48,414 bases of DNA from Chloroflexota bacterium (GTDB lineage Bacteria > Chloroflexota > Anaerolineae > J036 > Brachytrichaceae). Below the pieces are notes generated by a model that saw only the letters and a list, made by a program, of their open reading frames with translations, had not been told where the DNA came from and ran no database searches. Where the stretch lies: contig JANXLU010000034.1 in NCBI GenBank assembly GCA_025354985.1, positions 1 through 48,414 of the forward strand. Direction: 5' to 3'. Below are positions 10,544 to 15,528 of this stretch, one piece after another. The position numbers and the translations under genes were made by a program. How positions within the stretch are numbered: the first letter of the stretch is position 1; each line of letters begins with the position of its first letter.

Positions 10544-10552
10544 TGATAAAAT
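10544..10552 (+). promoter_or_regulatory. Extended -10 promoter (TGATAAAAT) for the candidate structured RNA
   Basis: TGA followed by TAAAAT matches an extended -10 (TGN plus hexamer at 10547-10552). The predicted start, about 10558-10560, falls right at the 5' strand of the closing stem of the RNA described next. Confidence 0.5.
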
Positions 10553-10558
10553 TCGATG

Positions 10559-10703
10559 TTACCGTCCACGAAGACGATTTACCCGCACGCGGCCTGGATG
10601 CTGAATGGTTGGCTGCGTGACGCACGCTGGCAGTTTTTGGTCGGGTGTGATCTGGGACGGTGCATAACGGGAGCTGCGCTTTGCGCGCGGCTTCCGTTTT
10701 TTT
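10559..10703 (+). ncRNA. Candidate structured small RNA or gltB leader RNA of about 145 nt
   Basis: In the 276-bp gap between the ABC operon and gltB the + strand has a promoter, a foldable body and an intrinsic terminator in register. Closing stem P1 pairs ACCGTCC (10561-10567) with GGACGGT (10655-10661). P2 pairs GAT and ACCCG (10576-10578, 10581-10585) with CGGGT and ATC (10642-10646, 10650-10652). P3 is a 9-bp helix, CACGCGGCC (10586-10594) with GGCTGCGTG (10611-10619), containing one G-U pair. A second CACGC at 10623-10627 can compete for GCGTG (10615-10619), so two folds are possible. It is not a tRNA (no T-arm sequence), SRP RNA or T-box that I recognise. It is either an independent sRNA (6S-like in outline, but short) or an attenuator for gltB. 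Confidence 0.55.
10668..10703 (+). terminator. Intrinsic terminator in the gltB upstream region
   Basis: CGGGAGCTGCGC (10668-10679) pairs over 12 consecutive positions, with two G-U pairs, with GCGCGGCTTCCG (10685-10696) around a 5-nt loop. Seven T residues follow at 10697-10703. It lies 74 nt upstream of the gltB start, so it ends the candidate RNA rather than a protein-coding transcript. Confidence 0.8.
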
Positions 10704-10760
10704 GTCAAATTTACAAAAGTATTCGGCCTCTGAATTCAGCTTGGGGGATGGTGTAGTCGA

Positions 10761-10766
10761 TACAAT
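10761..10766 (+). promoter_or_regulatory. -10 box TACAAT for gltB
   Basis: TACAAT lies 10 nt upstream of ATG 10777, downstream of the terminator at 10668-10703. This gives gltB its own nearly leaderless transcript (leader of about 4 nt). Confidence 0.5.
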
Positions 10767-10776
10767 ATCATTAGAA

Positions 10777-13700
10777 ATGAACAACGGCGAGCAGTCTGAT
10801 CAACAAAAAACGTCACCGGGTTGGGGGAACTATCCAACCAACCTGTCACTGTATGACAAACGTTTTGAGCACGATGCCTGTGGCATTGGGTTCCTGGCCG
10901 ACCTTAGTGGCAGAGCCACCCACAAGGTGCTGGATGATGGTCTGCGATCTCTTGAGCGGTTGTCTCATCGTGGCGCGCTGGATGCCGATGGCAAGAGTGG
11001 AGATGGCGCCGGCGTGCTCACGACAATTCCAAATACGCTGATGAACCGCGAGCTGGAGCGGCAGGGGCAACGTGCCCAACGCCCGGGCGATTTGGCGGTC
11101 GGCATGCTCTTTCTGCCCAAACATGCCCAGGCAAATGCCCGCGCGCGGGTAATCATCGATGATGTTCTGGCCAAAAAGGGATTTGAGGTGCTGGCATGGC
11201 GCACTGTGGTTCATGAGCCAAACGTGCTTGGAATGCGCGCCTCCGGCGCCCTGCCGGATATCCAGCAGGTGTTGGTGTCACGCCCGGCGCATGTCATCAG
11301 TGATCTGGATTTTGATCAGCAGCTCTACTTGGTGCGCCGTATGGTCGAGAATCAAGTCATCGCAGAATCGTCCGCGGTGCCGGAGCTCGGCCAGACTTAC
11401 ATATCCTCTTTTTCCTGCCGCACCATTGTCTACAAGGCGCTGGTGGCCAGCATTCATCTGCGCCGGTTCTATATAGACCTGCAGGACCCGGAATACAAGT
11501 GCAGCATCATTGTGTTTCACCAGCGTTACAGCACCAATACGTTCCCATCCTGGGATAAGTGCCAGCCGTTTCGCTACATGTGTCATAACGGTGAAATCAA
11601 CACGATCGACGGCAACGTCGCCTGGATGACGGCGCGAGAAGCACACCTGGAAAGTCCAATTTGGGGCGCGGACATCGAGCACCTCAAACCAATCTGCAAT
11701 ACCGAAAGCAGCGACAGCGGGCGGTTCGACAATGCGCTTGAACTTTTGGTGCTAGGCGGGCGGGATATTCGTCACGCCATGAAGATGATGGTGCCGCAGG
11801 CATGGGAGAAAGATCCGGATATGCCAAACGCCGCGCGTGGATTCTTTCGCTACCATGCGAGCTTGATGGAGCCCTGGGACGGCCCGGCATCGCTGGTGTG
11901 GACGGATGGGGTGCTGGTCGGCCTGCAGCTTGATCGAAATGGTCTGCGCCCGGCGCGCTATATTCACACGCGCGATGGCATGTTGTATGCGGGCAGCGAA
12001 GTTGGCGCGTATGATGTTGAACCGGGCAACATTCTTGCCACGGGCAAAGTCTCACCCGGGCAAATGCTGTGTGGTGACACGGCCACACGCAAGGTCATGC
12101 TAAACGACGAAATTTTGCGGTTGTTGTCCGGGCGCAAGCCATACCGCGATATGGCGTCCCGGCAGCGCATTCGCCTGGAAGATCACGCCGATATCAAGAT
12201 GGAACAGCCCGCAGTTAACGGCGAGGCGTTGTCAATTCAACAGGCGGCACGCGGATGGACGAGCGAGGAAGTGACGGTCATTATCAAAACCATGTTCGAA
12301 GACGGGGCCGAGCCCGTCGGTAGCATGGGCGATGACACGCCCCACGCCGTGCTCAGTGCCAAGCCCCGACCACTTTATAACTATTTCAAGCAACGCTTTG
12401 CCGAGGTGACAAATCCACCGATCGATCATTTGCGTGAGGATCAGGTAATGGGTTTGCGCGTGCTTATCGGTGGGCGCGGAAACATCCTGGATGAGCGCGA
12501 AGAACATGCACATCTGGTTCGGCTCAAGAGTCCGATCCTCCGCAACGAGGAACTAAAGGCCATTCAACAGCTGGATGATCCGGCATTTCGCAGCGCAATC
12601 ATCGACTGTACTTTTGAAACGGGCCCGGTTGCCCCACGCGGCCAAAAATCCCGCCTGGAGATGGCGGTTCGCGACGTGTGTGTCAGGTGCGAAGCGGAGG
12701 TGCGCTCTGGCGCAAGCATCCTGATAGTGAGTGATCGACAGGTCGGGCTCACCCGTGCGGCAATCCCAATGTTACTCGTGGTTGGTGCCGTGCACCATCA
12801 CCTGATGCGCGTCGGTTTACGGTGGAAATGCAGCCTCATTTGTGAAACCGGAGAGGCGCGCGAAACGCATCATATGGCGTTGTTGGTTGGCTATGGCGCC
12901 AGCGCAATCAACCCATACCTGGCATTGGATACCGCCCGTGAACATGTGCAACGGGGCAAAGTGCGTGACAAGACTCTGGATGAAAATGCCGTGGTAAACA
13001 ACTACGTAAAGGCGTGTGAAAAAGGATTGCTCAAAATTATGAGCAAAATGGGCATCGCTTGTGTGGATGCCTACATGGGCGGCCAGATTTTTGAAGCGGT
13101 GGGGTTGGGGGCGGATTTGATTCAAACGGCATTTGTCGGCACCCCCTCGCGCGTCGGCGGAATTGGATTTCCCGAACTTGAGCACGAGGTGATGTCCTGG
13201 CACGCCGCGGCATGGAATCAAAAATCGGACGCGGAAGGAGATTTTTCGCCCACCCGCCCGGCCTCAGGTGTGCACAAGCTGGATCACCCGGGGTTCTATA
13301 AGGAGCGCGTCGGCGGCGAGACCCATGGATACAGCACAAGGGCCGTTCACGCATTGCAACGTGCAGTCCGCCTGCAGGGACTATTTGAATACGACGGCGA
13401 ACGGGAGTTGGTGACGGGTATTGCTCGCACCATGGTCAAAACTTTTCATCTTAGCGGGAACTTTGACGAGGGATTCAAACTGTATCGCGAATTTGCCGAT
13501 TTGTATGGTGACCCGCATCACGCCATTGAGCCGCGTGATTTGTTGACGATCAAAAGTGACCGTGATCCAATTTCAATAGATGAGGTCGAGCCAATAGCTT
13601 CAATTTTGAAGCGGTTTTCCTCTGCGGCGATGTCTCTCGGCGCGCTGTCACCCGAGGCGCATGAGAACCTTGCCATTGCCATGACCCGATTGGGTGCGCT

Positions 13701-15528
13701 CAGCAACAGTGGTGAAGGCGGCGAGGAGAGCAAGCGTTATACCGACGAACGCAATTCCGGGATCAAGCAGGTGGCCAGTGGGCGTTTCGGTGTTACGCCC
13801 AGCTATTTGATGAGCGCGAGCGAGCTGCAAATAAAAATGGCCCAGGGAAGCAAGCCCGGCGAGGGCGGGCAGATACCCGGTCACAAGGTTACCGAGCTGA
13901 TTGCAAAGGTGCGGCACACGGTGCCGGGTGTGGCCCTGATATCACCGCCTCCACATCACGATATTTACAGCATCGAAGACCTGAGCCAGCTTATTTATGA
14001 TCTTAAGCAGATCAACCCTGCGGCGAAGATCAGCGTAAAGTTGGTGGCCCAGGCTGGTGTTGGCACCATTGCCGCCGGTGTCGCCAAGGGGCAGGCTGAC
14101 ATCATTGTGATTAGTGGCCATAGCGGCGGCACCGGCGCTTCTCCACTCAGCTCGATCAAGAACGCCGGAATGCCGTGGGAGTTGGGCGTGGCAGAAACAC
14201 AACAGACGCTGCTTGGCAACAATCTTCGTGGTCGGGTAAAGGTGCGCACCGACGGGGGCATACGTACAGGTCGCGAAGTCATGATTGCCGGGCTGCTCGG
14301 CGCCGACGAAATGAGCTTCGGCACCACCACGCTCATTGCCGAGGGGTGCATTATGGCGCGGGTTTGTCACCTCAACACCTGCCCGGTGGGCATTACCACC
14401 CAAAAACCTGAACTCAGAACCAAGTTTGAGGGCAAGCCGGAGCACGTCATGGCCTATTTGCTCTACGTGGCCCGGGATGTTCGCGAACATCTGGCCCGCA
14501 TGGGATACAAGACGTTTGACGAAATTGTCGGTCGCGGTGACCTGCTGACGCAAATCTGCACCGAGCACCACCCCGATGGTTTCGGATCGCACGTGGATGA
14601 CGACGGCGACCCGGCGCAAACCAAGGCGTCGTTGGTGATGCTCAAGACCTTGATCTCATTGCCCTACGCCGATCGCGCACTACATTACGCGGCGGAGCGC
14701 GGCCTGGAAGTCCGCAATGCGCTAAACGATCAAATTGTGAACGACGCGGCCCCCGCAATTGATGAGGGCTGGCAGGTGCGATTGCATTATTCGATCCGCA
14801 ACATGGATCGCAGTATTGGTGCACGCCTGAGCGGGGCCATCACATCCAAATATCATGACGCGGGTCTTGCCAAGGGCACTATTGAAATGGACTTTCGCGG
14901 ATACGCCGGGCAAAGCTTTGGTGCTTTTACCACCAACGGCATGGGCTTGCACCTCATCGGAGCCGCCAACGACTATGTTGGCAAGGGGATGACCGGCGGA
15001 GAAATTTCAATTCGACCGTTTCCGGAGGTGACCTACGACTGGAGCGCCAACCACGCGCTAGGCAATACGGCGCTCTATGGCGCCACGGGTGGCGCTCTAT
15101 TTGCTGCTGGCAAGGCCGGAGAACGTTTTGCGGTTCGCAACAGCGGCTGCTGTGCCGTTGTGGAAGGCGTGGGCGAAAATGCGTTGGAATACATGACTGG
15201 TGGCGTGGTGGTCGTGCTTGGGGGCACCGGGCGAAATTTTGCGGCGGGCATGACCGGTGGGATGGCCTTTGTTTATGACGAAGATGGTACATTCCTGAAC
15301 CGGGTTAACCCCGAACTCGTCGATGTTGACCGCGTGACCAATCCCGGCATGAAAAAACTGGTCAAGAACCTGGTGCGTCGCCACTATGAACTGACGAACA
15401 GCCCCAAAGCGCGCGACCTGCTGCGCAACTGGGAGGAAACATTGCTTTCGTTCCGCCGGATCCTGCCCAAGGATCAGGTGGCGGCCATCGAGTCCAAGAA
15501 CGAATTTGGCGACTACCAGACCACCTAA
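10777..15528 (+). CDS. gltB: Glutamate synthase large subunit (GOGAT)
   Basis: GltB takes the amide nitrogen of glutamine and, on its FMN domain, reductively aminates 2-oxoglutarate to glutamate. From ATG 10777 it has 1583 aa. A short propeptide precedes the N-terminal nucleophile, C35 in DACGIGF, of the class II glutaminase domain (about 35-430). The FMN barrel carries LSPEAHENLAIAMTRLG and the GEGGEESKRY loop, and the 3Fe-4S cluster cysteines are spaced C-x5-C-x4-C in CIMARVCHLNTCPVG. The C-terminal part is the beta-helix with GALFAAGKAGERFAVRNSG. An upstream in-frame start (10660) would run through the terminator and is rejected. No gltD follows, so the enzyme may be ferredoxin-dependent or use a distant small subunit. 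Confidence 0.96.
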   Translation: MNNGEQSDQQKTSPGWGNYPTNLSLYDKRFEHDACGIGFLADLSGRATHKVLDDGLRSLERLSHRGALDADGKSGDGAGVLTTIPNTLMNRELERQGQRAQRPGDLAVGMLFLPKHAQANARARVIIDDVLAKKGFEVLAWRTVVHEPNVLGMRASGALPDIQQVLVSRPAHVISDLDFDQQLYLVRRMVENQVIAESSAVPELGQTYISSFSCRTIVYKALVASIHLRRFYIDLQDPEYKCSIIVFHQRYSTNTFPSWDKCQPFRYMCHNGEINTIDGNVAWMTAREAHLESPIWGADIEHLKPICNTESSDSGRFDNALELLVLGGRDIRHAMKMMVPQAWEKDPDMPNAARGFFRYHASLMEPWDGPASLVWTDGVLVGLQLDRNGLRPARYIHTRDGMLYAGSEVGAYDVEPGNILATGKVSPGQMLCGDTATRKVMLNDEILRLLSGRKPYRDMASRQRIRLEDHADIKMEQPAVNGEALSIQQAARGWTSEEVTVIIKTMFEDGAEPVGSMGDDTPHAVLSAKPRPLYNYFKQRFAEVTNPPIDHLREDQVMGLRVLIGGRGNILDEREEHAHLVRLKSPILRNEELKAIQQLDDPAFRSAIIDCTFETGPVAPRGQKSRLEMAVRDVCVRCEAEVRSGASILIVSDRQVGLTRAAIPMLLVVGAVHHHLMRVGLRWKCSLICETGEARETHHMALLVGYGASAINPYLALDTAREHVQRGKVRDKTLDENAVVNNYVKACEKGLLKIMSKMGIACVDAYMGGQIFEAVGLGADLIQTAFVGTPSRVGGIGFPELEHEVMSWHAAAWNQKSDAEGDFSPTRPASGVHKLDHPGFYKERVGGETHGYSTRAVHALQRAVRLQGLFEYDGERELVTGIARTMVKTFHLSGNFDEGFKLYREFADLYGDPHHAIEPRDLLTIKSDRDPISIDEVEPIASILKRFSSAAMSLGALSPEAHENLAIAMTRLGALSNSGEGGEESKRYTDERNSGIKQVASGRFGVTPSYLMSASELQIKMAQGSKPGEGGQIPGHKVTELIAKVRHTVPGVALISPPPHHDIYSIEDLSQLIYDLKQINPAAKISVKLVAQAGVGTIAAGVAKGQADIIVISGHSGGTGASPLSSIKNAGMPWELGVAETQQTLLGNNLRGRVKVRTDGGIRTGREVMIAGLLGADEMSFGTTTLIAEGCIMARVCHLNTCPVGITTQKPELRTKFEGKPEHVMAYLLYVARDVREHLARMGYKTFDEIVGRGDLLTQICTEHHPDGFGSHVDDDGDPAQTKASLVMLKTLISLPYADRALHYAAERGLEVRNALNDQIVNDAAPAIDEGWQVRLHYSIRNMDRSIGARLSGAITSKYHDAGLAKGTIEMDFRGYAGQSFGAFTTNGMGLHLIGAANDYVGKGMTGGEISIRPFPEVTYDWSANHALGNTALYGATGGALFAAGKAGERFAVRNSGCCAVVEGVGENALEYMTGGVVVVLGGTGRNFAAGMTGGMAFVYDEDGTFLNRVNPELVDVDRVTNPGMKKLVKNLVRRHYELTNSPKARDLLRNWEETLLSFRRILPKDQVAAIESKNEFGDYQTT

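Follow-up and report, generated by a model that had tools for sequence, protein, structure and literature searches.

A terminator-ending gltB leader and a hexaloop element common to gltB, glnA and amtB in a family of Chloroflexota

Introduction

The RNA targets of ANTAR proteins, such as those of EutV at eutP, NasR at nasF and AmiR at amiE, are hexaloop hairpins closed by a C-G pair, with A at loop position 1 (A1) and an essential G at position 4 (G4), set two in tandem so that the second overlaps a terminator (Ramesh et al. 2012, PMC3369931). A1 is required in the EutV and NasR targets, and ANTAR targets mostly regulate nitrogen genes; among the reported examples are some that precede glutamate and glutamine synthases (PMC3369931). 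Chloroflexota are not named in that text. Among the ANTAR targets of Actinobacteria, the linker between hairpins ranges from 2 to 25 nt (PMC8164766). Among the papers searched, we found none that deals with nitrogen leaders in Chloroflexota of the kind described below. CsrA sites also place GGA in a hexaloop.

Here, we analyse a window of 48,414 nt, the whole stretch taken from contig JANXLU010000034.1 of a Chloroflexota bacterium, together with a sample of 28 genomes of its family in eight genera. An initial annotation of the window had proposed a structured RNA upstream of gltB, with its own promoter and terminator, and had read it as an sRNA, possibly 6S-like or nitrogen-related, or as a leader attenuator.

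Results

The strings on which that annotation was built, TGATAAAAT (10544–10552), ACCGTCC (10561–10567), GGACGGT (10655–10661) and the arms GCGTG (10615–10619) and CACGC (10623–10627) of a competing hairpin, were all found in place, and the terminator stem plus T7 is present at 10666–10703. The RNA is indeed structured: 10559–10705 folds at an MFE of −66.6 kcal/mol against a shuffle mean of −52.6 ± 3.8 (z −3.7), and 0/200 shuffles folded as well. Two hexaloop hairpins at 10563–10576 and 10590–10603, here called P1 and P2, had been overlooked. The features of the locus are as follows.

10544..10552, + strand: leader promoter, extended -10 element TGATAAAAT, seen in the sequence; conserved as CCTGATAAAAT upstream of gltB in genus-mates G001–G003
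10559..10705, + strand: gltB 5' leader RNA, its start placed from the -10 element; folding z −3.7 and terminator-ending leaders at the homologous position in relatives
10561–10567 with 10655–10661, + strand: closing stem, ACCGUCC with GGACGGU; excludes P1; pair probabilities 0.975–1.0 in the full leader
10586..10619, + strand: 9-bp helix, CACGCGGCC with GGCUGCGUG; excludes P2; in MFE and centroid structures
10563..10576, + strand: hexaloop hairpin P1, CGUC[CACGAA]GACG, loop 10567–10572, of class C-N-N-G-A-N closed by C-G
10590..10603, + strand: hexaloop hairpin P2, CGGC[CUGGAU]GCUG, loop 10594–10599, of the same loop class; 13-nt linker from P1
10666..10703, + strand: intrinsic terminator, 14-bp stem and seven T, from the fold and from terminators at the equivalent place in relatives
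10777..15528, + strand: gltB, the gene under regulation, encoding the large subunit of glutamate synthase (Pfam GATase_2, Glu_syn_central, Glu_synthase, GXGXG)

The gltB product thus holds all four large-subunit domains, and its gene starts 73 nt after the terminator end. The initial annotation had also given gltB a promoter of its own, TACAAT at 10761–10766. We find this promoter weak: its -35 (TTGGGG) is poor, the spacer is 14 nt by eye, none of the inspected relatives showed a counterpart, and transcription from it would begin some 4 nt ahead of the gltB ATG (10777). The recognisable promoter in the inspected relatives lies upstream of the leader, as TGATAAAAT in three genus-mates and as TTGACA-N16/17-TATGCT or similar in most other genera.

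How far is this arrangement kept? The nearest named relative by GltB is the Chloroflexi MAG REEB501 (JAGWYZ010000082.1; best segment 70% identical). Within the family, a strong terminator precedes gltB in 17 of the 25 loci with readable upstream DNA (window included), and relatives have the order promoter, 110–220 nt of structured sequence and intrinsic terminator shortly before the gene. No obvious terminator was seen in the g8 loci, in some g7 and g2 loci and in G005 (family f1, genus g3), whose leader also has no clear P1 stem; G007 does have a terminator, but its T-run is interrupted. By DNA Blast against 60 relatives, the window leader gave only short chance matches, and thus the position of the leader is kept while its sequence drifts. 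It is well supported that the RNA upstream of gltB is a 5' leader ending in an intrinsic terminator rather than a 6S-like or free-standing sRNA, and 10559–10705 is very probably a cis-acting gltB leader. Termination there may release a short RNA.

Genus g6 has a 22-nt block near the leader 5' end that hardly varies; it occurs at gltB and nowhere else in those genomes. We rejected this block as a regulon motif: away from gltB it matched once (G001, with 3 mismatches), as often as expected from the reversed-pattern control.

Outside the hexaloop, sequence is hardly conserved in the leaders. We scanned them for C-G-closed hexaloop hairpins and compared all 64 loop classes, a fair measure because several examples had been spotted by eye before the scan. 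The class C1-N-N-G4-A5-N was found in the gltB leaders of 7/10 lineages. Over 1000 shuffles, the best of the 64 classes reached 5 lineages once and 4 ten times, and C-N-N-G-A-N itself never more than 3. As a control, 174 kb of DNA from these and related genomes gave the class at 0.21 per kb, and there it ranked 15th of 65. The element thus has G at loop position 4, with C at position 1 and A at position 5; canonical A1-G4 loops stayed at background level. The hexaloop stem varies by compensating changes (A2), with 97.5% of cells paired and a covariation of 0.86 versus 0.21 in shuffles, a count that illustrates rather than proves covariation because the hairpins were picked for pairing. Two hexaloops in one leader, as in the window, were seen in 0/2000 shuffles (one in 40/2000); some g7 and g4 leaders also carry two and most others a single one. 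P2 is not conserved at its place in the genus-mates.

The same loop class lies upstream of glnA in 17/34 rows, not all of them independent because a few glnA loci were entered twice (next best class, 3), and upstream of amtB in 16/28 loci (next best class, 4). The amtB hairpins vary freely at loop positions 2 and 3 and mostly agree at 1, 4 and 5, and the window genome's own amtB (L260) has GUGC[CAUGAU]GCAC; no terminator overlapping the hexaloop hairpin was seen in the amtB regions. A more stringent pattern, GTCACCNNGANGTGAY, matched 22 times across the 28 genomes. Twelve of these matches stand immediately before glnA, and only they overlap a strong terminator, as in G008, GUCAC[CAGGAC]GUGACGUUCC...GGAACGUCACGUCCU. 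Because the terminator 5' arm consists of the loop bases and the hairpin 3' arm, hairpin and terminator are mutually exclusive at glnA. The glnA leaders illustrate the switch more clearly than the window leader does. The window genome's glnA of this type begins at a contig end, and its leader lies outside the count. We dropped the idea that the glnA hairpin-terminator element spreads beyond the family, as no strict-pattern match in other genomes of the class had an overlapping terminator. Together, these loci make it likely that the window leader belongs to a hexaloop-marked nitrogen regulon of gltB, glnA and amtB.

The glnA leaders concerned (L193–L197, L201, L203–L205, L211–L213, near position 1500) are about 70–100 nt long and come from six genera. 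Their layout is promoter, about 25–80 nt of RNA, GUCAC[CNNGAN]GUGAY overlapping a 12–16 bp terminator, and glnA. In the amtB regions (L241, L242, L246, L250, L253, L260 and others), the hexaloop hairpin lies about 280–340 nt upstream of the Amt domain, and in many of them a perfect AGGAGGUGA, with no obvious gene, stands about 40–80 nt before it.

At gltB, the hexaloop hairpins do not overlap the terminator and lie far upstream of it. In the predicted structure of the window leader, P1 competes with the closing stem: in partial transcripts with ends at 10600 and 10625, P1 is predicted to be the first to form, and the closing stem would later take its place. Constrained folds show that P1 and P2 can coexist with the window terminator. 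The complementarity of upstream strands to this terminator was not above that of shuffles. An antiterminator strand general to gltB leaders was rejected, with complementarity no better than shuffles in most; in genus g6, the terminator-complementary strand falls at one conserved place.

Which protein could read the hexaloop? Exactly one ANTAR protein is encoded in 26/28 family genomes. That of the window genome (G000:C66) has 193 aa with receiver and ANTAR domains and is a response regulator. In G005, the glnA leader with hexaloop and terminator is present and no ANTAR gene was detected, at a genome completeness of 92%. CsrA was found in 0/28 family genomes, with control genomes positive, and we therefore rejected a CsrA-regulated leader; the loops CAGGAC and CUGGAU do hold GGA in a C-G-closed hexaloop as CsrA/RsmA sites do, whereas most gltB and amtB loops are without GGA.

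Discussion

The element resembles the EutV, NasR and AmiR targets in its C-G-closed hexaloops, its G4, its nitrogen genes and the presence of a genomic ANTAR response regulator (PMC3369931). Moreover, the glnA hairpin overlaps and excludes an intrinsic terminator, so that at glnA the element works like an ANTAR target. It differs from these targets in C1, in A5, in its frequent single hairpins and in the distance between gltB hairpins and terminator. With the Actinobacterial targets, the window leader shares two hexaloops and a 13-nt linker within their published range, and loop positions are relaxed there too, whereas A1/G4 is still the consensus in Actinobacteria and the targets are mostly non-nitrogen genes (PMC8164766). 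An ANTAR protein is the leading candidate because the published targets match in form and gene set, because ANTAR is near-universal in the family and because CsrA is absent, and on this comparison we lean towards it as the putative reader of the hexaloops. Because of the C1 loop, the background level of A1-G4, the single hairpins and G005, the element falls outside the strict class of canonical ANTAR targets; it is best read as a variant ANTAR-type nitrogen regulon.

What could the mechanism be? By default, RNA polymerase would halt at the terminator 10666–10703. A putative binder, most likely the response regulator G000:C66, would grip the C-N-N-G-A-N hexaloops in the nascent leader, and binding would favour read-through into gltB, coordinated with glnA and amtB in a single regulon of nitrogen assimilation. 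Trapping of P1 and P2 would block the closing stem and the 9-bp helix, keeping the leader from its terminating fold, and GGCUGCGUG, once freed, could compete with the terminator 3' arm. The computations show the leader with its terminator, the hexaloop upstream of gltB, glnA and amtB, and the exclusion between hairpin and terminator at glnA; the role of ANTAR as binder, a rise in expression upon binding and the averting of the terminating fold by P1/P2 trapping are inferences. As a whole, the explanation that we favour, with guarded confidence, is a gltB leader that acts as an attenuator, probably worked by ANTAR and in step with glnA and amtB.

Thus, one short RNA element precedes the genes for the uptake of ammonium (amtB) and its fixation into glutamine (glnA) and glutamate (gltB), a concrete candidate regulon in bacteria whose RNA regulation is little known. 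Should ANTAR be the reader, its loop code would extend beyond the A1-G4 rule of published searches, which would have missed such sites; if it is not, a different antiterminator awaits discovery. We tentatively suggest that C-[C-N-N-G-A-N]-G may be a new hexaloop code for glnA, gltB and amtB in this family, read either by an ANTAR of altered specificity acting on single hairpins or by an undescribed antiterminator.

The same regulon and attenuation could depend on a non-ANTAR RNA-binding protein, perhaps of an undescribed family. C1 in place of A1, the frequency of single hairpins and the glnA site of G005 all point that way; against it, ANTAR is near-universal and single-copy in the family, no alternative candidate was identified and CsrA is absent, which leaves such a protein a rather unlikely reader. 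Alternatively, the leaders could be protein-independent attenuators or riboswitches that sense a nitrogen metabolite directly, with the hexaloop as part of the fold. The long structured gltB leaders and the nearly invariant 5' block of genus g6 would suit a riboswitch. However, only about 25 nt of RNA precede the glnA hexaloop hairpin, too little for an aptamer, and sequence outside the loop is not conserved. Rfam was of no help to this reading either: its cis-regulatory families gave only sub-threshold chance matches, confined to the terminator, and none in the relatives' gltB, glnA and amtB loci, and the glutamine riboswitch, which the initial annotation had named for an Rfam search, matched neither the window nor those loci. 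We consider direct metabolite sensing improbable.

The part of the initial interpretation that stands is the nitrogen-related leader or attenuator, since the family retains a leader with a terminal terminator at gltB, and this leader has its hexaloop in common with those of glnA and amtB. The part that finds no support is the free-standing small RNA, 6S-like or other, that would sit upstream of gltB by chance while gltB uses its own promoter. The RNA does have a promoter and terminator, and the weak TACAAT at 10761 would fit; the closing stem and the discrete, short terminated RNA also recall 6S RNA (RF00013). Unlike 6S RNA, neither the window nor the genome gave a covariance-model match (RF00013, genome-wide at E ≤ 1), and no Rfam family reached its gathering score in the window; we therefore rejected a 6S identity, and this genome either lacks a 6S RNA or has one that has diverged beyond the reach of the model. 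In addition, no downstream promoter was seen in relatives, and leader and terminator remain at gltB across genera without sequence conservation, a conservation tied to the downstream gene, so that a chance sRNA is highly improbable. Finally, leader-peptide attenuation, in which translation of the 66-codon frame 10556–10753 or its counterpart in relatives would set the fold through ribosome position, is the remotest reading: frames do begin near the leader 5' end in the window and genus g6, but frames across the leader are not conserved, with no Pfam match, tblastn matches at chance level, premature ends of the frame in L036 and L041, a missing ATG in L045 and L056, and no run of glutamate or glutamine codons.

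In the g6 leaders L036–L043, a frame reading MNATK(L/R)FI begins at leader position 20; it runs for 41–48 codons in 6/8 of them, is shortened in two and probably arises as a side effect of the conservation of the RNA. The TTGACA-N16-TATGCT promoter of the same genus (L036–L045), which lies about 340 nt before gltB, includes a strongly conserved ATCGCGTATGCT. This conservation exceeds promoter needs, and ATCGCGTATGCT may be a transcription-factor site overlapping the g6 promoter.
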